In this document: positions 2,388-19,035 of the stretch, piece after piece
Layout: every line of letters begins with the position of its first letter
Position numbering within the stretch: the stretch's first letter is position 1
From: a virus
Strand: one strand, 5' to 3'
DNA: 25,194 nucleotides
IMG/VR virus record: IMGVR_UViG_3300030429_000008
Span: 1 to 25,194 of that record
Position numbers and translations under genes: made by a program
Notes under the pieces: model-generated
Told to the model about the DNA's origin: nothing
Database searches by the model: none
Seen by the model: only the letters and a program-made list of their open reading frames with translations

Positions 2388-5300
2388 TTACCTCTTGAGG
2401 ATCGTGGCGACGGAATGGACGTTCTGGATCAGGAAGGGCACACCCGAGCCGCGCTGGCATTCCAGCGTGATTGTCTGATTGCCAGTCCCCACTGAGATTG
2501 TTCGCCGAAACGGAACAAGCTCCTGAAAATGTGCACCACCCTGAGAGTCAAAGGGCGACCCGCTCAGCAGCAGACGCAGCCCCCACGACCCAGCAGTTGG
2601 CCCGCCGTTCAGCAGCCAATTCACATGGCAGTCAATCATCAGAAGCGAGCCACTATCCGGCACGTTCACAATGAAAGACGTCGCGTTGTTCCATGCCGTG
2701 GCTGTCGCGGGCGTCTTGGTGCCGCCGCCGTAGTTCTCGAAGAACGTGGACGGCTCAGTGACAGCGCGTCCGTTGATCTTGGCCGTTGTGATTGCATTCG
2801 TAGCGATTTGCCCGGCGTTGATCGCAGCCGTCGCGATCAGTGCGCTCGTTATCGTGTTGGCGGAAATCTTGTCGCCTGTGATGGTGCCCGCCGCGATCTC
2901 AGCGGCGGTGACAGTTCCCGAGGCGATCTTGGCCGCAGTAATCGTATTGCCGGCGATCTTGTCACCGGTGATCGTCGTGCCCGCAATCTTATCACCCGTG
3001 ATTGTCGCGGCGGCGATCTTGACCGCTGTAACAGCACCCGTCGCAATCTCAGAGGCAGTGATGGTGCTGGCCGCTATCTGTGACGCGGTGATCGTGTTTG
3101 CGGCGATGTTGGATCCTTGGATCGTGCCTGCCGCGATCTTGGCAGAGGTAATGGTGCCCGATGCAATCTCAGTTGCTGTAATCGTGCCGGATGCGATCTT
3201 GGCGGCTGTGATCGTGTCTGCTGCGATCTGCGAGGCGGTCACGGCACCCACAGCGATCTTGGGTGTCGAAATCGCGCCGTCCGTGATTTGCGTACCGGTG
3301 ATTTGCCCCGTCACCTTTGCGGCTGCGATGGCGGCAAGCTGCGCGTTGGTTAACTGACCCGTAACTTTCGAGGCAGCAAGCCCCGCAATTTTGGCGTCCG
3401 TGACTGCGCCGGTCGCGATCTGCGGTGTCTGTATCTGCCCGGTCAGTTTTGCCGCCGCCAAGGCCGCGATCTGCGCATCGGTCAACTGCCCAGTGACATC
3501 AACGGCAGGCACCGTGGCGACATAGGCCGTGCCGCTCCAACGATAGAGCTTGCTCTCAAACATGATCGCCTCGGTCAGCTTGACCGTTGGGAGCGTGCCC
3601 TCGACAATCGTGACGGGTTCGATACCGGCAGCAAAATCAGCCCGCTGGATACGCACGTCGTCAGTGGTCACCCAGATCCATGCAGTCCATGTGCCTCGGC
3701 GATTGTCAGAAAGCGCTTTGGCGCGCACGCGCAGGTTCGTGAGTGGCGGCACGGGCTGGATGGTCATTGCGCCACGCTCGACATCGAGCACGGTGCCGCT
3801 CCAGACCTCCTCCTCGGTCTCGCGCTTTTGGCATTCAATGGCGATGCCCTTGATAGTCTCGGCGATCCCGGAGGCATCCCAGAAGACGTCGACGGCCGCA
3901 TGCGCACGGGTGCCTGCCTGATTGGTGACAATGCGCGCGTCGGCGTCGAAAAAGGGCAGGCCTGCGTCTGTAGGGATTGGGCGGGGCAGGATAGAGGCGC
4001 GGTCGGGGATCTCATACGCCGGGTCGATCTCGAAATCATCCGGGTCGCGCTCGCGTAGCGAGGTGACAATGGTCAACCGGTGCAGATCGAGCACGATCTC
4101 CGTGACCTCGAAGAGCTTGGCGTCGTAGTCGTTCCAGGCGCTGGTGACGACCACAGTATTGAGGGGGCGCAGACCGGCATAGTCGGGCGGCAGTGGCCAG
4201 GCGTGACGCCGCCAGCGGCGATGGTCGCGCAGCGTGTCCTCGGCCAGTTGCCCGGCCTGTCCCGGGTTAAACACGGCCGGAAGGTCCAGCTCGAAATTCC
4301 GCACGATACCGTCCTCTGCCTCCCAGTCGGGATTGCGGATCTGATCGAGGGGCACGCCGTTCCAGAGCGCGCCGGGCGAGACATATTTGGCGGTGACCCG
4401 GTTGAAGATCTCAAGCAGTTCGGGAAACGGGTCTTTGGTGGCGGCGTCCGTCACCAGAAGATCGTCGTCCGTGATCGCGGCCACGGCGATGTCGGGTGCG
4501 CCGACCTGAATATACCAGAAGCCCCCGAACTCCGCGATCTGGCCGTTGCAGGCGGCGAGCAATTCGTTGATCACATCTCCGGACGTGTCCTCGGCGAATT
4601 TGATCTCATAGCCGGACTGGTACTGAGGCCGCCCGTCCACGTCCACGTCGCAGGCGTTCATGCCCGGCACCCAGTTCCAAAGCGGCAGATCCTCTGCGTC
4701 GGCCTCGCCGCCCCAGATCGAGCCGTCATGGAGCGACAGGCCGCGCAGGATGTTGTAGGTCTTCACGATAGGATTGCGTGTCGGCCCCCATGTCGTTGGA
4801 TCGTCCCAGCGGTGCAGGCCTGTGCCGCCGACCGTGCTATCGAGGCGGGGATCGTAGAACGGGATGCCGTTCTCCTCATAGCGCTGCTCCGGCGCTCCAT
4901 TGGGCCAGACCTTGGAGCTCACTTCCATCGTCAGGATCGCGTAGGGGATGCCGTGCCCGATATGTGCCTCTGTCCAGGGCGTCTCGGGGTCCTCGGCATA
5001 TTTGGCGACGAGTGTCGGATCTGCGCCGGTCTGGGTGCCGTCGTAGACCTTGATCCATGCATAATCGACGCCAAGGTCGCGCTTGGCGAGGACTGGAAAG
5101 CCGTAGTCGGGATGTTCCTCTGTCCCCAACTCGGAATAGACGCCGTCCACCATCAAGCGGCTGAAGGTGGCCCCGGGCAGGCCGCCCAGCTCGATGACGG
5201 TCTGGTAGTATTTGTTATTGGGGCCGTGGCTGTTGTGATAGATCAGATGCCCTTTGGTGGCGTAGAGGCCGACGATTGTGGTCTCGCTCTCCAGCTCGCC

Positions 5301-5531
5301 GCGCGTGGTCGCGGTCACCTGCAGCCCGAAGGCGGTGTTGCGCCCGCGCCGGGCTCGGCGCTGTTGCAACAGGCTTAGCCCGACCGATGCGAATAGCCGC
5401 AGGGCAAAGAGCGCGACGGCTTTGACCGTGATCCCGGCAAAGATGGCGGCGGCGGCGGCGGCCAGCGGCCCGGCCGAAGCGGGTGCCGTCGAGGCGAGCA
5501 CGAGTGCCGCTATCCAAGCAAACAGTCTCAT
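2388..5531 (-). CDS. Large tail-tip / host-specificity protein with repeat shaft
   Basis: At 1047 residues this is the largest protein in the window. It starts at ATG 5531, overlapping the DUF6950 stop as ATGA. The first ~58 residues are hydrophobic, opening with a signal-peptide-like stretch (MRLFAWIAALVLASTAPASAG) and a second hydrophobic segment. Residues ~60-600 look like a tail hub/tip core comparable in position to lambda J or GTA gp15. Residues ~680-922 are a 10-residue repeat (x-x-I-T-x-x-x-I-A-x) likely to form a trimeric or helical shaft. The last ~115 residues (ending VHSVATILKR) are a compact beta-rich domain that could bind the receptor. Order after tape measure, two hub proteins and a peptidase matches the host-recognition protein of long-tailed phages. 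Family-level assignment is by context and architecture. Confidence 0.8.
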   Translation of the reverse strand: MRLFAWIAALVLASTAPASAGPLAAAAAAIFAGITVKAVALFALRLFASVGLSLLQQRRARRGRNTAFGLQVTATTRGELESETTIVGLYATKGHLIYHNSHGPNNKYYQTVIELGGLPGATFSRLMVDGVYSELGTEEHPDYGFPVLAKRDLGVDYAWIKVYDGTQTGADPTLVAKYAEDPETPWTEAHIGHGIPYAILTMEVSSKVWPNGAPEQRYEENGIPFYDPRLDSTVGGTGLHRWDDPTTWGPTRNPIVKTYNILRGLSLHDGSIWGGEADAEDLPLWNWVPGMNACDVDVDGRPQYQSGYEIKFAEDTSGDVINELLAACNGQIAEFGGFWYIQVGAPDIAVAAITDDDLLVTDAATKDPFPELLEIFNRVTAKYVSPGALWNGVPLDQIRNPDWEAEDGIVRNFELDLPAVFNPGQAGQLAEDTLRDHRRWRRHAWPLPPDYAGLRPLNTVVVTSAWNDYDAKLFEVTEIVLDLHRLTIVTSLRERDPDDFEIDPAYEIPDRASILPRPIPTDAGLPFFDADARIVTNQAGTRAHAAVDVFWDASGIAETIKGIAIECQKRETEEEVWSGTVLDVERGAMTIQPVPPLTNLRVRAKALSDNRRGTWTAWIWVTTDDVRIQRADFAAGIEPVTIVEGTLPTVKLTEAIMFESKLYRWSGTAYVATVPAVDVTGQLTDAQIAALAAAKLTGQIQTPQIATGAVTDAKIAGLAASKVTGQLTNAQLAAIAAAKVTGQITGTQITDGAISTPKIAVGAVTASQIAADTITAAKIASGTITATEIASGTITSAKIAAGTIQGSNIAANTITASQIAASTITASEIATGAVTAVKIAAATITGDKIAGTTITGDKIAGNTITAAKIASGTVTAAEIAAGTITGDKISANTITSALIATAAINAGQIATNAITTAKINGRAVTEPSTFFENYGGGTKTPATATAWNNATSFIVNVPDSGSLLMIDCHVNWLLNGGPTAGSWGLRLLLSGSPFDSQGGAHFQELVPFRRTISVGTGNQTITLECQRGSGVPFLIQNVHSVATILKR
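2764..3490 (-). repeat. 30-bp / 10-residue tandem repeats in tail-tip shaft
   Basis: About 20 degenerate 10-residue units follow each other, for example NTITAAKIAS, GTITATEIAS, GTITSAKIAA and NTITASQIAA. Ile or Val occupies position 3, Thr position 4, Ile position 8 and Ala position 9. On the plus strand GTGATCGT..GCGATCTT patterns recur at 30-nt spacing. Units near the N-terminal side (VTGQLTDAQIAALAAAK) are longer and less regular. Boundaries are approximate. Confidence 0.85.
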
Positions 5532-6585: not shown

Positions 6586-7253
6586 ACGCCGCCCCCCAGC
6601 GTCTGTTGCCAGGTGAAGCTGCCGCCCTCGGTGCGGCGCGAGCGCCCCGGTCCCGGTTTGAAGCTGAGTAGTTTTGCCCGCGCCTGCGGGCGATCAACGA
6701 CCACTGAGGCCCCGACCACGACGCCGGGTCGCAGGAAGGGGGACACCTCGAACCGGGCAGTCGCCCCGGTGCTATCCGCCGTGACGGTCGCATTGAGAAT
6801 GCGGTGGACGTTATATCGGACGGGGCTCGTCAGATACTGAAACCCGATTTTCTGCCCGCGCCGCAGGGTGAAGTTCGGCGGCAGGCCTTGCAGGCTCAGT
6901 TCGCGGTTGCCGGGCACGAGGCTCTTGATCGTGACCGGTTGCGCGGCCCAGTTGATGCCTGCCGGATAGGCGGGGTCTTGGGGCGCGAATTGACGGCGGT
7001 CATAGATCATAAAGGACGCCCCCGGCTCGAGCAGGTGCTCGATCAGCGCGTCTTGCGCCGCGATCACGTCGGGCTCCGACTTGCCCAGAACGACCTCGCC
7101 CTGCCAGAGCCGTGCCCCTCGCCGATGGGTGATGACCTCGCCCCCGGCCGTGACAGAGCTTGTGCTGTCGCCCGGCAGATAAAAGGTGGCCTCTTCGATC
7201 CCCAAGAGGTCGAAAAATCCAGACGTCGGAATGGGCCAAACCTGGACCGCCAT
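6582..7253 (-). CDS. Distal tail protein-like, directly after tape measure
   Basis: This 223-residue protein starts MAVQVWPIPTSGFFDLLGIE with the ATG sharing one base with the tape-measure stop (TAATG). The sequence alternates beta strands (SSVTAGGEVITHRRGARLWQ, VRYNVHRILNATVTADS) and has no enzyme motif. Proteins right after the tape measure in long-tailed phages usually form the first ring of the distal tail (Dit or lambda M-like), and this is the best contextual reading. I do not see a decisive family signature, so GTA gp12 (DUF2460) equivalence is only positional. Confidence 0.65.
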   Translation of the reverse strand: MAVQVWPIPTSGFFDLLGIEEATFYLPGDSTSSVTAGGEVITHRRGARLWQGEVVLGKSEPDVIAAQDALIEHLLEPGASFMIYDRRQFAPQDPAYPAGINWAAQPVTIKSLVPGNRELSLQGLPPNFTLRRGQKIGFQYLTSPVRYNVHRILNATVTADSTGATARFEVSPFLRPGVVVGASVVVDRPQARAKLLSFKPGPGRSRRTEGGSFTWQQTLGGGV

Positions 7254-9862
7254 TATCCCCTCCCCAGCGGGTCGCGCCGGATCGTCTCGACCCGGAGCGG
7301 CAGCTGCTCGTTTGAAAAGTTGTCGACTACGTCCACGGCCACGTCCCGCGCGCGGTCCTCGACGACGACACGGAACAGGTCCGACGGCTCGATCCGCAGG
7401 CGTGTCATGCCCTCCGCCGAAGCGCCCGCGCCGCCACCTCTTGCCGGCGCTGCGCCCGCAGCCTGCACAGGCAGGGGCAGGCCGCCCCCGGCAAAGCCCG
7501 GAATGATCGCGCCTGCGTTCATGGCCTCGAGCACCGCGCGGTTGCGCGCTGTGGCCTCGGCCGTCATGATGAATTCCCCGGCACTCACCATCGCGCGAAT
7601 ACGGTCGCCCCGGCCCGTGCCTGCGCCCAAGAGGAGGCCGGGACGGGTGACAAGAGGATCGCCGCCGCTGGCAAAGCCGGGCAGGCCGCCATTGGCGAAG
7701 GAGAGCAGCGAGCCTCCCGAGAAAAGGTCAAAGAGATCGCCAAGCCCGCCGCCGCCGAAGATCCCGCTCAGGAGACCGCCGCCGCCGCTGCCCCCAAAGA
7801 GACCGGACAGCGGGCCAGAGCCGAGGATGAGCGCTTCCTTGGCCGCGCGGATGATCATGTCGCCGATCCCCTCCCAGACGTCCCGGAGGCTTTCGGCCTC
7901 GAGCAGCACGTCGTCGACGGCGTTGCCGAATTCCTCCTTGCGCTCCATGGCGACGCGCTCGTTTTCATGGGCCTCGACGAGAGCCTCGATCTCCGCACGT
8001 TGCTTTGGCGTCGCGGCGGTCAGGCGTTCACGCAAGCGGATCATCTCGCGCTGCACCGGATCGCTTTCGCGCAGGGCCTCTATCTCGCGCTGTTTGGATG
8101 CGATCAGCCGGTCAAGGGCCTGCTGTTCGCGCAGGGTCTCGTTGGTCGATGTGCCCCGCGCGCCGCTGCCGGACCGCGTGGGTCGGGCCTGCTCGTTGAG
8201 GCGCGCAATTTCGCGGGCCTGCTCGATGGCGGCTTGCCGTTGGCTGTTGAGAAAGGCTTCCTCCCCGGCGTTCGCAAAGCCGTCGCGGCGAAGTGGTTGT
8301 GTGTCTCTGTCAAAACGTGCACCGGCCAAGGCCCCCGCACGTCCAACAGGGTCGTCGCGGAACTCGGCACGGATACGCGCGGTCTCAAGCTGGGCCTGCC
8401 CTTGAGATTGCAGGTCGAACATTGCGTCGACAGCGCCGCGCACCTCGGCCGAGAGGCGGGCTGCCTCATTTGCGGCGGCGTTCAACGCGCCGGAAACATC
8501 TACCGTCGACAGATCAAATGCAGCTTCAGCCGCCTCGCGCAGTGCCTCCTTGGTTGCCTCGCTTGCGTCCGAAGCCGCGATCTCCTCCAGCTTGGCGTTG
8601 AGGGCGAACTGCGCGCGTAGGCGCGAGACTTCGACGCTGTCCGCGCCGGTCCGGGCGATAGCCTCCGCGACCGCATTCTGCTCGGTCAGCGTCAAAAGCA
8701 TGGCCTGCGCCGCCGCCTCGGCCTTCAGCTGCTCGCCGGTGCTTTTGGTCACCAGGTCGAGGAAGGTCAGCATTTCCTCGGACTGGCGGTTGTCCTCAGG
8801 GTTTTGCGATTGAAGCTCGGCGACTTCGGCCAAGCGGATACGCATCTGGTCAAGTGTCAGAAGTCGGGCTTCTTCTGCCTCGGATATTGTCCCCACCGCT
8901 TCGGCGGCGGCGGTGTAGCTTAGAATGAGCGCCTCAATGGCGCCTTGCTGCTGTTCAATTGTCCCGCCAGCGGCGTCCTGCAGCGCGATCAGGTCCTCTG
9001 CGACGGCTTCCGCAAGCCTGCGTTGTTCGTCAAATACGCTTCGGTCTCGGATAATGCCGCCGAAGTCGAATTCGTCTTCGATGGCACGGCGGTTAAATCC
9101 GACGCCACGCGAGGGGTTTATGCCCGTCTCGCCGACAAACGAGCCGATATTTGACGCCGCCTCGCGCTGTGCCGCGCGCTTTTCTGCCTCGACGATGCGG
9201 TCGAGAATGTCCTGCGCGCGGTCAACGAAGCCTTCACCAAACCGGTCGGCCAGCTCCAGCCGGGTGGCAGAGGCCTCGGCGATCTTGTCCTTCAGGCTGT
9301 CGATGCGGGTCTCGAGCGCTTCAACGCTGTCCGCGAAGCTCTCGGCCTCTTCTGACGATGACATGAACCAGTTGACCACGGTAGCCGTCGCCGCGAGCGC
9401 GCCGATGGTGATCAGATTAATGGGGCTCAGCATCGCAAGAACCGCGCCGCCCAAAGCCCGGAACGCGCCTGCAGCCCCGAGCGGGCCTATGACTTGAGTG
9501 ATCTGCGTGCCCTGCTGGATAGCCAGTGTCAGCGGGTTCTGCCCCGCTGCCAGCATGACGAAGACGTCATTGCCCTGCGCCACCAGGTTGCCCATCGAGC
9601 CTGCGGCAAGGCGATTGGCCGAGGCCATTTTCTGAGTTGCAGCAGTGTTGACATTCGCAGCGGAACTGGCAGCGGTCAGGCCCGTTGCCGAGGTCCGCGC
9701 GGCGGTCTCGAGTTGTTTCACACCGCGCGCTGCATTGGCCCCTTGGGTGCCCACGCCGCGAATGTCTTGGGCGGCCCCTTTGGCGGCGGTGCCGGTTGCC
9801 TGCAGCTCCGCCTTCGCCTGGTCGGCGTCCATGAGGATTTCGGCCCGTGCGACCAATGTCAT
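7253..9862 (-). CDS. Tail tape measure protein, lambda type
   Basis: This 869-residue protein is rich in Ala, Gln and Glu and mainly alpha-helical. The N-terminal part has the signature GNLVAQGNDVFVMLAAGQNP and LAIQQGTQITQVIG found in lambda-family tape measure proteins, followed by a hydrophobic segment near residues 130-165. The centre is long coiled coil. The C-terminal part has Gly-rich GGLPGFASGGDPLVTRPG and a conserved block ending SAGEFIMTAEATARNRAVLEAMNAG. It sets tail length and helps DNA cross the cell envelope. By the usual ~1.5 angstrom per residue the tail should be about 130 nm, close to lambda (853 aa). Its ATG lies one base after the preceding stop, right after the two chaperone frames, as expected. 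Confidence 0.92.
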   Translation of the reverse strand: MTLVARAEILMDADQAKAELQATGTAAKGAAQDIRGVGTQGANAARGVKQLETAARTSATGLTAASSAANVNTAATQKMASANRLAAGSMGNLVAQGNDVFVMLAAGQNPLTLAIQQGTQITQVIGPLGAAGAFRALGGAVLAMLSPINLITIGALAATATVVNWFMSSSEEAESFADSVEALETRIDSLKDKIAEASATRLELADRFGEGFVDRAQDILDRIVEAEKRAAQREAASNIGSFVGETGINPSRGVGFNRRAIEDEFDFGGIIRDRSVFDEQRRLAEAVAEDLIALQDAAGGTIEQQQGAIEALILSYTAAAEAVGTISEAEEARLLTLDQMRIRLAEVAELQSQNPEDNRQSEEMLTFLDLVTKSTGEQLKAEAAAQAMLLTLTEQNAVAEAIARTGADSVEVSRLRAQFALNAKLEEIAASDASEATKEALREAAEAAFDLSTVDVSGALNAAANEAARLSAEVRGAVDAMFDLQSQGQAQLETARIRAEFRDDPVGRAGALAGARFDRDTQPLRRDGFANAGEEAFLNSQRQAAIEQAREIARLNEQARPTRSGSGARGTSTNETLREQQALDRLIASKQREIEALRESDPVQREMIRLRERLTAATPKQRAEIEALVEAHENERVAMERKEEFGNAVDDVLLEAESLRDVWEGIGDMIIRAAKEALILGSGPLSGLFGGSGGGGLLSGIFGGGGLGDLFDLFSGGSLLSFANGGLPGFASGGDPLVTRPGLLLGAGTGRGDRIRAMVSAGEFIMTAEATARNRAVLEAMNAGAIIPGFAGGGLPLPVQAAGAAPARGGGAGASAEGMTRLRIEPSDLFRVVVEDRARDVAVDVVDNFSNEQLPLRVETIRRDPLGRG

Positions 9863-9863
9863 G

Positions 9864-10552
9864 TCAGCTCTCCCGCATCGCGGCCACGGCCGCGCTTTCG
9901 ATCACCTGTACCTCGGCCCAAAGTTGGGGCGTGATCCGTATCCCGCTCATGCGCAGGCCCGCCCGTGCAGCGGTGTAGTCGAGGCCCACGACCCGGAAAC
10001 CGGCCAGCCCGGCCGAGACAGTGCGCCATTGATTGCAGACCGCGAGGAAGGCCCGAACGACCGGGACGTTTTGCGGCCAGATGCCAGTGCCAGTGCCAGA
10101 GCCGGACGGATCGCGAGTGAGCTGGCCCGGGTCGATCCCCCAGAACGCCGCCTCGTCATCATGGTCGCTGCCCTGGTCATCAGCGATCAGGTCGCCGCGC
10201 GCCCATGCCCGCCCGGCCCATTTCAGTTTTTTACCCGCTTCCCCATGAGCGCCGCGTGATAGGCATTGACCAGGGCGACGCGGACATAGGCCAGACCGAT
10301 CAGCCGGTCGCGCAGGCTGTGGCTGTAGGGCAGCGTCTTGCCCTTCTCGTCTTCGACGTCGTCAAAGCCCACCACGGCCGCCGCTAGAAATTCCCGCTCA
10401 CCGCGTGTGGTGCGCATGTCGAAAGCCTCGATTTCATCGTCGGGCAGCACGCGGAACGTGACTTGCAGGTCCTGCAAGTCATGGCCCCCGTCGGTGGGCA
10501 CCTTGATCTCGACGCGGTGGGTAAAGGCCGGGGTCGGGTCGATCTTGAACAT
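9864..10552 (-). CDS. Tail assembly chaperone, long form made by -1 frameshift (C-terminal DUF1799-like)
   Basis: The frame after base 10226 is open to a TGA at 9864-9866 and has no early start codon of its own. Its only in-frame ATG near the beginning of a domain lies far downstream. Joined at the A-AAA-AAC site it gives a ~229-residue product: 109 residues of the short form plus 120 more. The added part reads GIWPQNVPVVRAFLAVCNQW and RVVGLDYTAARAGLRMSG, which fits the DUF1799 family of tail chaperone C-termini (W-P-x-N-x-P-x-V-x-x-F and GLDY). The long form, like lambda gpGT, would bind tape measure and tail tube during assembly. The frameshift is inferred from sequence; I am confident in the reading frame. 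Confidence 0.8.
10223..10552 (-). CDS. Tail assembly chaperone, short form (gpG-like)
   Basis: This 109-residue protein (MFKIDPTPAFTHRVEIKVPTDGG...GKRVKN) lies between the tail tube gene and the tape measure, the invariant slot of the lambda gpG-type chaperone. It contains VTFRVLPDDEIEAFD and a helical Ala/Val-rich C-terminal half. It ends at a TGA that directly follows a slippery A-AAA-AAC. Most ribosomes should terminate here to give the abundant short form, with a minority continuing into the next frame. Its ribosome binding site is weak (GAAAGAGAG, about nine bases before ATG 10552). Confidence 0.8.
   Translation of the reverse strand: MFKIDPTPAFTHRVEIKVPTDGGHDLQDLQVTFRVLPDDEIEAFDMRTTRGEREFLAAAVVGFDDVEDEKGKTLPYSHSLRDRLIGLAYVRVALVNAYHAALMGKRVKN
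10226..10232 (-). promoter_or_regulatory. Probable -1 programmed frameshift site A-AAA-AAC followed by TGA
   Basis: On the minus strand the zero frame reads GTA AAA AAC TGA. The seven bases A-AAA-AAC form a canonical X-XXY-YYZ slippery heptamer, and the stop comes immediately after. A one-base back-slip continues as CTG AAA TGG into the open DUF1799-like frame. A Shine-Dalgarno-like GGGGA lies about 9-10 bases upstream, a known stimulator of bacterial -1 frameshifting. I could not identify a convincing downstream hairpin. Confidence 0.75.
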
Positions 10553-10600: not shown

Positions 10601-11536
10601 TCAGGTGAGCGTCATCGTCCACTGGTCGGCAGCGGTAGCGGTGGTGGGCAGCGGCACAAGGCGCAGCGGCCACTCCTTGCGACCCTGACCGTCCTCAAGC
10701 CCTTCAGGACGCTGCATCTGCGCATTCGGGGCGGCGATATTGACGATGTTGCCTGCCGTCTTGCCGTGCTCGATCTCGAGCGCGACCTTGGCTTTGGTGG
10801 CGGCCATGGTGAACGGGTTGAACGTGGCCAGCGCCACGGCACGCACCCGCGCCTCGACGGTGTTCTCATGCCCGTCGAGTAGCACTTCCTCCTCACCGAT
10901 CAGGAATTGCGCCTCGACGCGATTGGCGAGGGTGAGCTTGAAGCTCCGCATCACAAGCGACGTCTCATCAATCGTGAAGGTGGGCGTGTTGGCATCCGAG
11001 GCCGCGAGCGGATCGGGAATGCCGGTGAAATCTGGGGTCGGGATCGCCACGTCGGCCGGGGCCACGTAGAGGGCGGTGAACTCGAACTCGATATAGGGAA
11101 TGCCCGAGGCCGAGACGTCAAAGGCGGCGGTCCCGCGCACCCCCACCATGGCGTAGAGCGTGCCGCCGATATTGAGGTGCAGCGTGACGCTCTCAAGGTT
11201 CGAGTAAACCCGATTGTAGACCACAGACGTCGCCGCCGTCACGGTCTCGGCACAGCCACAGGCCCGCAGGAGGCGGCCCCAGCGGGGCGCGGTTCCGGCG
11301 GTGCCGGAGCCTGCCAGTTCGACCTTGAACGAGATGGTGCGGTGCAGATCGACCGGGATCGTGCCGGTGGGCCCGCCGTGCGGCGTGTCGAGATTGCGGT
11401 CGAGATCCTGACCCTGCATCGGCGACAGGCGCACATCGGTCGCGAGGATTGCGTCGCCGCCAGTAGGGGTGGCGTCCGTTCCATAGGTGGTTTCCAGCTT
11501 CGCGAGCAGGACTTTGCGTCTCCAGAGCAGGCTCAT
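10601..11536 (-). CDS. Siphovirus-type tail tube protein
   Basis: This 311-residue protein starts MSLLWRRKVLLAKLETTYGT, the common opening of long-tail tube proteins (a strand followed by KLE.TYGTD). It then has beta-rich domains with SYNSV-type motifs: VVYNRVYSNLESVTLHLNIG, GIPYIEFEFTALYVAP, and a C-terminal Ig-like stretch. It precedes the chaperone and tape-measure genes, which fixes its role as the major tail protein that polymerises around the tape measure. Its ATG overlaps the stop of the 41-aa ORF (ATGA). The presence of this protein instead of a Mu sheath and contractile tube implies a non-contractile tail. Confidence 0.85.
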   Translation of the reverse strand: MSLLWRRKVLLAKLETTYGTDATPTGGDAILATDVRLSPMQGQDLDRNLDTPHGGPTGTIPVDLHRTISFKVELAGSGTAGTAPRWGRLLRACGCAETVTAATSVVYNRVYSNLESVTLHLNIGGTLYAMVGVRGTAAFDVSASGIPYIEFEFTALYVAPADVAIPTPDFTGIPDPLAASDANTPTFTIDETSLVMRSFKLTLANRVEAQFLIGEEEVLLDGHENTVEARVRAVALATFNPFTMAATKAKVALEIEHGKTAGNIVNIAAPNAQMQRPEGLEDGQGRKEWPLRLVPLPTTATAADQWTMTLT

Positions 11537-16289: not shown

Positions 16290-17549
16290 TCAGCCGATAT
16301 TTTCCACCCAATAGGTCAAGAGTACGAGCCGCTGGCGTCGCGGTCGCGCGACGAAATGCGCGACATAGCGCCGTGCGCCGATAGTCTTAGTCAGACGCAA
16401 GACCCGAGACTGCACGCTACGGGCATCCGTCCATTCAAAGCTGTCTGGGCGCTGGAATATCTCGGGCAACCGTCCCAAGTCTTCCGGGGTGACCGCTATC
16501 TGCCCACGGGAGGCCTCGCGCTCTGGGTTCCCGTGGCGTGCAAAAATATGACGGATGGAATCCGCGTCAACGGCCACGTCGTAGCGGTCTAGATCGCGCC
16601 GCGCACCCTCGCGGTTGAGCCGGGCCTGAGTGGTAGTCATCAACCCGAGGGACTGGATCGGCTCCCGCTCGGAAATGGTCTTCCGTGCGGCTTGGGTGTT
16701 CGCGGTCTCGACGCGCGCTGCGTAGCGCCGGATATTGTCAGCCAATGACGGCAGGCCTCGGTATCCTTCGACCAGAAGATCGCGGGTCCGGTCCGGGAGG
16801 CTGGCCATGTAGGCCACCGCGAGGTTATACCGCCAATCGACGACCTTGGCCGCCATCGTGCGAATTTCGTCCACGGTGCTGGCCCCGGGCGTGTAATCCC
16901 AGCCCTTGTCGATCCCTTTCGGCGCGCCGGTGCGCGGATCCCGGGATTGCCAGTCGTCGGGCAGGCGCTTGTCCGGGTCGCCGCCGCGACGACGTGCGCC
17001 GTCCTCAGAGCGCGCGCCGATCACGTAGCAGCTGCAGCCCCAGCCGTTGGGCGGGCCATGCGTGATCCAGAACGGGTGATCAGGTGGCAAGACCAGCCCG
17101 TCCCAGCCAAGATGGATCAGGCGCGGCTCAGTTGAGCCGCCGTGCTGGTAGACCCAGAACGCAAAATTGCCCTCGATGAGCTGCGCCATCCGCCCGGCCG
17201 CGTAGCTGGTCGCGATGTTGGTGCGGTAGATCACCCGCGTGCGCCATGCCTCGCCGCGCGTGCTGCCTTCGCCGGTCCAGCCGTGCCAGCCGCGTCGGGT
17301 GACGGTGGCGCGAAAATCGCGGCGGAACTCTTCCAGAGACGTGCCCTGCGAGATGGCCTTATCAACAGAGGCCGCCAGATCCGCCAAGAGGTCGGCCTTC
17401 TGTGCCCCTGCCACCATGAAAGCCCGGTCGTGCTGGGCGAGGGTGATGTCATCCCACCGCGCCGTCGGCACGAGATCGCCCAGGCGCAGGCGAAAGGCGG
17501 CGATCTGCTCGCGGAAGGGACGGCGAAACGTCGCGCCGAGATCAGCCAC
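16290..17549 (-). CDS. Mu F-like head morphogenesis protein with C-terminal BECR-type nuclease-like domain
   Basis: The frame encodes 419 residues from a GTG at 17549. GTG is preceded by GGAGGAAGATA and overlaps the portal stop by eight bases (GTGGCTGA), so I prefer it to the longer ATG at 17582. Residues ~40-180 have the Mu gpF/SPP1 gp7 core: RTRVIYRTNIATSYAAGRMAQL, the usual RT..N...AY..GR motif, and downstream a Cys-containing NGWGCSCYV. The last ~110 residues carry DSIRHIFARHGN and VTPEDLGRLPEIFQRPDS and an ending LTYWVEN, matching the phage Barnase-EndoU-ColicinE5/RelE-like domain pattern. Such domains are often fused to F-like proteins and may act on host RNA or DNA at injection. Domain call is from motifs only. 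Confidence 0.8.
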   Translation of the reverse strand: MADLGATFRRPFREQIAAFRLRLGDLVPTARWDDITLAQHDRAFMVAGAQKADLLADLAASVDKAISQGTSLEEFRRDFRATVTRRGWHGWTGEGSTRGEAWRTRVIYRTNIATSYAAGRMAQLIEGNFAFWVYQHGGSTEPRLIHLGWDGLVLPPDHPFWITHGPPNGWGCSCYVIGARSEDGARRRGGDPDKRLPDDWQSRDPRTGAPKGIDKGWDYTPGASTVDEIRTMAAKVVDWRYNLAVAYMASLPDRTRDLLVEGYRGLPSLADNIRRYAARVETANTQAARKTISEREPIQSLGLMTTTQARLNREGARRDLDRYDVAVDADSIRHIFARHGNPEREASRGQIAVTPEDLGRLPEIFQRPDSFEWTDARSVQSRVLRLTKTIGARRYVAHFVARPRRQRLVLLTYWVENIG

Positions 17550-19035
17550 TATCTTCCTCCAACGCGGCGCGGCCTCCGGCATGCGCCGCCGTGAGGGCCG
17601 ACGCGATCACGTCGCGGAGTGCTGCATCGTCCAGGTCCGGAAACCCGGCCAGCAGCCGCTCGCGGAACTCCGCAAGGCTGGTCGACGTCTCCAGCATCGC
17701 CTCGATTTGTTCGAGCATCGCCAGCATCGGCACCGACGCCTCGTTCGCCAACCGGTCTGCCAGATCGCCCACAGGGCCGTCGAGCGCGCCGTCATGTTCG
17801 GCGAAACCGGCCTCGGGCGTGTCCTCGTCTGGCGGTGTGTTCTCCGGGGGCGTGGCGCGCTCATAGCCGTCGCCGTAGATTTCCTTGACGCGGTCTTCGG
17901 TCATCTGCCAGCCGATCCGATGCAGCTTTTCATCGCGGTCGACGGCGGCGGTTGTATCCTCCGGGTCCTCCATCTTGCGCCACACCCTTGGCGGCGCGAC
18001 ACCGGGGAAGTTGAAACCGCAAAGCCGCGCCACCGGCCCTTCGTTGAAGGATTGGCACACGAGATCCGCGTCGGATTTCTTGACGGCGTCGCCCACGTCG
18101 TCATGCACCTCGGCTTGCGACCGACTGGAGCCATTGTCGGTGGTCATGGTCTGGGACAGCACGATCTTCGAGATGGCGGCATCCATCGTGTCGTGCAGTT
18201 TCTGGTAATCCAGCGAACTTGCCCCCGAGGGCGCTGACAAAAGCTCAATATCCATGCCCTCGGGAATGATGATCCCGGCCTCTGAGCGTATGGCCATGAC
18301 GGCCTCTAGCAGTTTCTTTTGCTCGGCCTCAGTGGCTTGCGACGGGTATTTGCCGCGTGCGGTCGGCATGCCGAATTTGTCGAGGGCGATCAGCCAGAGC
18401 TTCAGCCCGTTGCGTTTGAACCAGACCGGCCAGTAGAGCCAATGCGCGAGGCCTAAGCCGTAAGGTTCGTCGTCGTGATCCGCGCCGGTCGAGAAGACCC
18501 AGAACTTCTCGGGTGGCATTTCCTCGCCTGTGAGCATGTTGGACATGGTCAGCAGGCGCAGGCCGCACTCCTCATCAAAGCGAAACCGCACCCGGTCGCG
18601 CACGCGGATTTCCTCCCAGCCCCAAAGCTGCCCGTCGCGGCGAAACATCTGTTCGGCGACGGAATAGCCATAGAAGAGGCCCCAGAGCATCTTCTCGGTC
18701 AGGCGGTCGAATTTCATGGCCGAAAGCTCGTCGCGCAGCCAGTCGGCCGCGCGTTTGCCCGCCGCCGTTTCCTCGCCCGGCACCACTTCCCATTCCCGGC
18801 TGGTCACGGCCGAGATGCGCTGCGTCATCACTGATTTGACCTGCGGGTCGGTCAGGATCGGCTTGTAGATGTCGAAACTGCCGCCGCCGCGCGTGCGCAG
18901 GATCGGGTCCGTCGGCTCCAGCAGCGGGCCGATCCATGGTCGGGTGATGTCGCGCCCGTGCTGGATGCCCGACAGCTCCATCGGGTTGCGCAGCCGAACC
19001 GAGCGCAGCCGCATTGTGCCGGTTTTTCTAGCCAT
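17542..19035 (-). CDS. Portal protein, DUF935 family (Mu gp29-like)
   Basis: This 497-residue protein begins MARKTGTMRLRSVRLRNPMEL from ATG 19035. I prefer this start to 19077 because GGAGGG lies eight bases upstream and the ATG overlaps the terminase stop (ATGGCTAG). It contains the DUF935 features TDPQVKSVMTQRISAVTSREWEV, LWGLFYGYSVAEQMFR, and LIALDKFGMPTARGKYPSQA. The portal forms the dodecameric ring where DNA enters, at the head vertex, and docks with the terminase coded just upstream. Residues near the C-terminus (DEDTPEAGFAEHDGALDGPV) are acidic and probably exposed. Confidence 0.9.
   Translation of the reverse strand: MARKTGTMRLRSVRLRNPMELSGIQHGRDITRPWIGPLLEPTDPILRTRGGGSFDIYKPILTDPQVKSVMTQRISAVTSREWEVVPGEETAAGKRAADWLRDELSAMKFDRLTEKMLWGLFYGYSVAEQMFRRDGQLWGWEEIRVRDRVRFRFDEECGLRLLTMSNMLTGEEMPPEKFWVFSTGADHDDEPYGLGLAHWLYWPVWFKRNGLKLWLIALDKFGMPTARGKYPSQATEAEQKKLLEAVMAIRSEAGIIIPEGMDIELLSAPSGASSLDYQKLHDTMDAAISKIVLSQTMTTDNGSSRSQAEVHDDVGDAVKKSDADLVCQSFNEGPVARLCGFNFPGVAPPRVWRKMEDPEDTTAAVDRDEKLHRIGWQMTEDRVKEIYGDGYERATPPENTPPDEDTPEAGFAEHDGALDGPVGDLADRLANEASVPMLAMLEQIEAMLETSTSLAEFRERLLAGFPDLDDAALRDVIASALTAAHAGGRAALEEDSG

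Follow-up and report, generated by a model that had tools for sequence, protein, structure and literature searches.

A predicted lambda G/GT-type programmed -1 frameshift joining a tail assembly chaperone to a DUF1799 frame in a Mu-like phage

Two overlapping frames between the tail tube and tape measure genes

How is an open frame of 120 codons translated when it opens inside a tail chaperone gene, has no usable start codon and ends just ahead of the tape measure gene? This question is raised by the window analyzed here, the whole stretch of 25,194 nucleotides from a virus contig, which represents a Mu-like phage read on the minus strand and carrying a siphovirus-type tail module. Profile matches identify the Mu-like genes as GemA, DUF3164, the Mu portal, Mu F, Gp36, and the tail terminator. 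A Mu F-like head protein (positions 16290 to 17582, minus strand) bears a PBECR3 nuclease-like domain at its C terminus (PF18812, E = 3e-9), and the C-terminal half of the tail tip protein (2388 to 5531, minus strand) contains a long run of imperfect TITAAKIASGTITATEIASG-type repeats. A search for plasmid carriage of the region returned zero matches.

The gene order at the locus is tail tube (PF18906), TAC_4, DUF1799, and tape measure (TMP_2), all on the minus strand. The tail tube protein (10601 to 11536; PF18906 Phage_tube_2, E = 5.7e-13) is encoded directly upstream of a gpG-like tail assembly chaperone of 109 amino acids (10223 to 10552), which matches PF08748 Phage_TAC_4 (E = 1.8e-5; 25.4 bits, with a curated cut-off of 21.1) and phrog_569 (E = 4.1e-21). 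The -1 frame extension, comprising 120 codons and a stop (9864 to 10226), carries a DUF1799 domain and is the putative gpT-like half; its resemblance to DUF1799, proposed in the preliminary description from the letters alone, is borne out by alignment to PF08809 (E = 2.5e-12; 47.3 bits, with a curated cut-off of 26) and by a match to phrog_680 (E = 2.9e-18). The tape measure protein (7253 to 9862; PF06791 TMP_2, E = 1.6e-18; phrog_25241, E = 1.8e-75) follows directly downstream, and its ATG at 9862 lies just after the TGA of the -1 frame (9866 to 9864). Two overlapping frames are thus found between the tail tube and tape measure genes, as in loci of the lambda G/GT type.

The chaperone ORF (10552 to 10223) ends in GTA AAA AAC TGA, in which the slippery heptamer A_AAA_AAC (10226 to 10232), with 0-frame codons AAA and AAC, is adjoined by the 0-frame stop TGA (10223 to 10225). 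This canonical X_XXY_YYZ heptamer is correctly phased and lies close to where the first frame ends, which is a further feature of the lambda G/GT type. Read from 10226, the -1 frame begins CTG AAA TGG GCC and remains open for 120 codons; from stop to stop it opens at 10361, and no ATG, GTG, or TTG occurs in this frame of the window upstream of the DUF1799 core. The preliminary description had given the same chaperone end, heptamer, and startless frame of 120 codons, as well as the predicted junction peptide ...GKRVKN-LKWAG, and the sequence agrees with it on each of these. The string AAAAAAC occurs once on both strands of the 25.2-kb window, at the junction, and the listed genes of the window, with 7,708 codon positions, contain only 2 in-frame X_XXY_YYZ sites (Y being A or T). 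The presence of the heptamer at the junction is not due to chance.

Conservation of the junction and alternative explanations

Relatives were collected from viral scans, annotated phages, and three Roseovarius genomes, the last three loci coming from a single-sequence scan of bacterial genomes, and clustering at 75% DUF1799 identity gave 70 clusters, in which junction heptamers were scored by a phase-based test. A_AAA_AAC followed by TGA is kept at the junction in all 35 nearest viral loci, and a heptamer lies where the chaperone frame ends in 68 of the 70 clusters, being A_AAA_AAC in 27 and G_GGA_AAC in 41. Elsewhere in the same genes of the relatives, in-frame heptamers occupy 7 of 12,833 positions. 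The stop adjoins the heptamer in 62 of 69 scored clusters and comes one codon later in 5. The isolate phages HK639, phiES15, JL1, Kenya-K19, and pAEv1818 have A_AAA_AAC and then a stop. Loss of the heptamer in close relatives, named in the preliminary description as evidence that would speak against a frameshift, was not encountered; it is retained in all close relatives, and the distant ones, with few exceptions, either retain it or have G_GGA_AAC in its place. The canonical heptamer is absent in three relatives, namely, Microcystis phage yong1 (L044), the relative L252, in which the A-run is one base shorter (five As), and Klebsiella phage Op1_ER4 (L288), in which the chaperone frame ends in CAA AAG CGC TAA.

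The codons used at the site differ from those used elsewhere in the relatives' genes, where GGA accounts for 78 of 955 glycine codons (8%) and AAA for 113 of 421 lysine codons (27%); at the site, the respective counts are 41/41 and 27/27, and the asparagine codon is AAC in 68/68 clusters. The exchange of Gly-Asn for Lys-Asn with retention of the slippery property indicates selection on the nucleotide pattern rather than on the peptide. The final base of the heptamer is C in all 68 cluster representatives and never G, which is the final base in the lambda and dnaX heptamers. In addition, the first base 3' of the heptamer is T in all 68 representatives, belonging to either a stop or a TCN codon, so that the first codon of the -1 frame is always CTN, encoding leucine.

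The exchange between A_AAA_AAC and G_GGA_AAC, which changes the amino acid and keeps the capacity for slippage, argues against sequencing error, transcriptional slippage, and initiation at a CTG alike. An assembly or sequencing indel in the run of six As could in principle produce the frame break, as could decay of the gene, since homopolymer runs are error prone and the window is a virus contig. The identical break nevertheless recurs across some 70 clusters and in genomes of isolates, among them Roseovarius sp. 217 and R. mucosus DSM 17069, while 41 clusters have G_GGA_AAC, which contains no six-base run, and both frames are intact with significant Pfam matches. The G_GGA_AAC relatives and the isolates refute an indel, and an artifact or decayed gene has a negligible probability. 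Slippage of RNA polymerase on the same run, which would give a mixed mRNA pool, might operate in the window and in the 27 clusters with six As, but the frame relation is unchanged in the 41 G_GGA_AAC clusters that have no comparable run, and the motif is phased to codons in the X_XXY_YYZ manner, a requirement of ribosomes and not of polymerases. The lack of an A-run in these 41 clusters makes transcriptional slippage exceedingly improbable.

Translation of the DUF1799 frame as a separate gene through coupled reinitiation, for example, at a CTG overlapping the TGA stop, has several points in its favor. The window has a CTG precisely at the junction, the RefSeq records of RC1 and RS1 begin the second CDS at the junction CTG, a G-rich Shine-Dalgarno (SD)-like motif is present upstream, and some relatives have an ATG, GTG, or TTG further downstream in the -1 frame. 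Counts of the next codon show, however, that 18 of the 68 clusters have CTA or CTC instead of CTG (the stop being TAA or TAG, or the codon being TCN), so that initiation at the junction CTG fails as an explanation. The distance of 13 nt between the SD-like element and the CTG is large for initiation, and reinitiation leaves both the strict X_XXY_YYZ constraint and the use of rare codons upstream unexplained. An alternative start for the -1 frame was sought in the relatives, and no conserved position was found, which also answers a further point on which the preliminary description had considered a frameshift open to refutation. Absence of a conserved start codon in the second frame is a trait shared with loci of the lambda G/GT type, and reinitiation is very unlikely.

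Some loci in the collection showed features of their own. In the relative L086 (approximately 1500 to 1530), an in-frame TAA lies just inside the DUF1799 frame after the start of the match and the heptamer is intact; the TAA is possibly a sequencing error or the mark of a decayed copy. Contig IMGVR_UViG_3300002544_000025 (L002 and L023) and its sister contigs, of approximately 73 to 82 kb, carry two DUF1799 loci approximately 41.7 kb apart that are 100% and 86% identical to that of the window, which suggests that a single host carries two related Mu-like prophages next to each other. In Pseudomonas phage PS-1 (L042), genes for a partition ATPase and an anti-repressor (2763 to 5138) follow the DUF1799 frame at the position expected for the tape measure gene.

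Stimulatory elements and the proposed mechanism

An SD-like GGGGA (10240 to 10244, minus strand) lies 7 nt 5' of the heptamer, with a predicted duplex with the anti-SD sequence of -5.5 kcal/mol, and is a probable stimulator of frameshifting. SD-like upstream stimulators are established for bacterial -1 frameshifting (PMC4066793). Among the cluster representatives, anti-SD pairing is optimal for 8-mers starting 11 to 15 nt upstream in both heptamer classes. Compared with resampling of synonymous codons, pairing is stronger in one heptamer class (-5.05 versus -3.62 kcal/mol, standard deviation 0.42) and in the other (-3.61 versus -2.60 kcal/mol, standard deviation 0.29), with 0 of 1,000 synonymous nulls as strong in each class, a significance that is only approximate because codon usage was pooled and phylogeny ignored. 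The SD-like element, raised as a possible stimulator in the preliminary description, is supported across the family, and a stimulatory role is predicted for it. In the lambda G/GT type, a stimulator, whether SD-like and upstream or structural and downstream, is an optional feature. Downstream of the site, the 83 nt 3' in the window fold no better than shuffled sequences (z = +0.56); folding in the relatives is weak on average (mean z of -1.09, with 18 of 68 below -2), and structure may thus help in some of them.

These features point, with very high probability, to a programmed -1 ribosomal frameshift of the lambda G/GT type in a Mu-like phage whose tail module is of the siphovirus type. The analysis shows the sequence signal, the conservation of this signal, and that the second frame is coding; from these we infer that slippage takes place, how often it does so, and what each half does, as follows. 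Most ribosomes would stop at the TGA and release the 109-amino-acid G-like chaperone, and a minority would probably be paused by pairing of the GGGGA with 16S rRNA. These would slip back by one base, the P-site tRNA-Lys (on AAA) and A-site tRNA-Asn (on AAC) re-pairing on A AAA AA, and would translate through DUF1799 to give a GT-like fusion of approximately 229 amino acids. A point against this model is that, in E. coli, A_AAA_AAC slips less readily than A_AAA_AAG (PMC5009743).

In lambda, gpG attaches to the tape measure protein, and gpGT brings in the tube protein through its T half (PMC5009743). By analogy, the 109-amino-acid product may be a G-like chaperone and the predicted fusion of about 229 amino acids its GT-like counterpart; both products would form a coat on the tape measure protein, and recruitment of tail-tube subunits would fall to the DUF1799 half as the putative T-like half. 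AlphaFold2 gave confident models (pLDDT of 88 for DUF1799 and 91 for TAC_4). Foldseek searches of both halves against the PDB gave no match at an E value of ≤0.001. When compared with predicted structures of viral proteins, the DUF1799 model is similar to proteins that bear the name tape measure chaperone in Enterobacter phage F20, Salmonella phage Shivani, and Proteus phage Stubb (Foldseek probabilities of 0.96, 0.94, and 0.82), with modest E values of 0.06 to 0.4, so that the likeness of fold is supporting and not decisive. Profile searches for homology of DUF1799 and TAC_4 to solved structures returned only weak hits, confined to a short segment, to ribosomal protein L20 (E = 0.0015), which were judged to be due to chance, and nothing convincing for TAC_4.

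Relation to known systems and annotation of the family

The lambda G/GT heptamer is reportedly G_GGA_AAG, and the present locus differs from it in having A_AAA_AAC with an adjoining stop and in that its halves fall in PF08748 and PF08809. The likeness to lambda claimed in the preliminary description nonetheless holds for the strategy, including the position between the tail tube and tape measure genes, the short chaperone with a longer -1 fusion (predicted here), and the tandem slip on X_XXY_YYZ; the heptamer is indeed not that of lambda, though it has already been reported elsewhere. The programmed -1 frameshift of lambda G/GT was described by Xu, Hendrix and Duda (2004), a work cited in both PMC5009743 and PMC3711429. 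AAAAAAC and GGGAAAC have precedents at phage tail chaperone frameshift sites (PMC3556154, PMC5009743, and PMC3483164). The pre-tape measure chaperone frameshift of phiCbK-group Caulobacter phages uses AAAAAAC, with GGGAAAC in phage Colossus (PMC3556154), and A_AAA_AAC has been reported for halovirus HCTV-2 (PMC5009743). The phiCbK group, which consists of large lytic phages, unlike the window phage, was compared at its slippery sites and shares there the two heptamers of the TAC_4/DUF1799 clusters.

A homologous pair is present in Serratia phage vB_SmaS-Smarc2 (MT980831), whose host belongs to another class; its DUF1799 half is approximately 40% identical, the junction has the same A_AAA_AAC TGA, and the pair was deposited as a joined CDS, "pre-tape measure frameshift protein." Rhodobacter phage RC1, Rhodovulum phage RS1, and Thiobacimonas phage vB_ThpS-P1 have the same gene order and a DUF1799 half that is 37 to 44% identical but differ in having G_GGA_AAC and two separately annotated genes, with the frameshift unremarked. 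The mechanism is classical, and both heptamers and one joined homolog are already on record. None of the papers searched connects DUF1799 with frameshifting, and the family-level pattern of only two heptamers, always AAC and then T, with an SD-like element upstream, is a modest extension for which no earlier statement was found.

In PHROGs and many RefSeq phage records, TAC_4 and DUF1799 proteins (phrog_569 and phrog_680) are labeled "tail length tape measure protein," which is apparently a propagated mislabel. DUF1799 proteins are called tape measure or "hypothetical" proteins with arbitrary starts in many phage records, and these annotations could be corrected, as the proteins are most likely produced solely through frameshifting, as fusions. 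It is slightly more likely than not that the whole TAC_4/DUF1799 tail module of phages of Alpha- and Gammaproteobacteria is one conserved recoding cassette, in which an SD-like element is followed almost only by A_AAA_AAC or G_GGA_AAC, never by an AAG-ending heptamer in the surveyed clusters, then by T and usually a stop, and in which DUF1799 would be T-like and translated only as a fusion. The alternation of two heptamers over approximately 70 clusters provides a clean natural data set on the use of slippery sites by bacterial ribosomes and prompts a question open to testing, namely, why AAC is invariably the second codon. If the cassette reading is true, the restriction to AAC, a codon that is weakly slippery in E. 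coli, would implicate an uncharacterized determinant, for example, the modification of tRNA-Asn or the neighboring stop.
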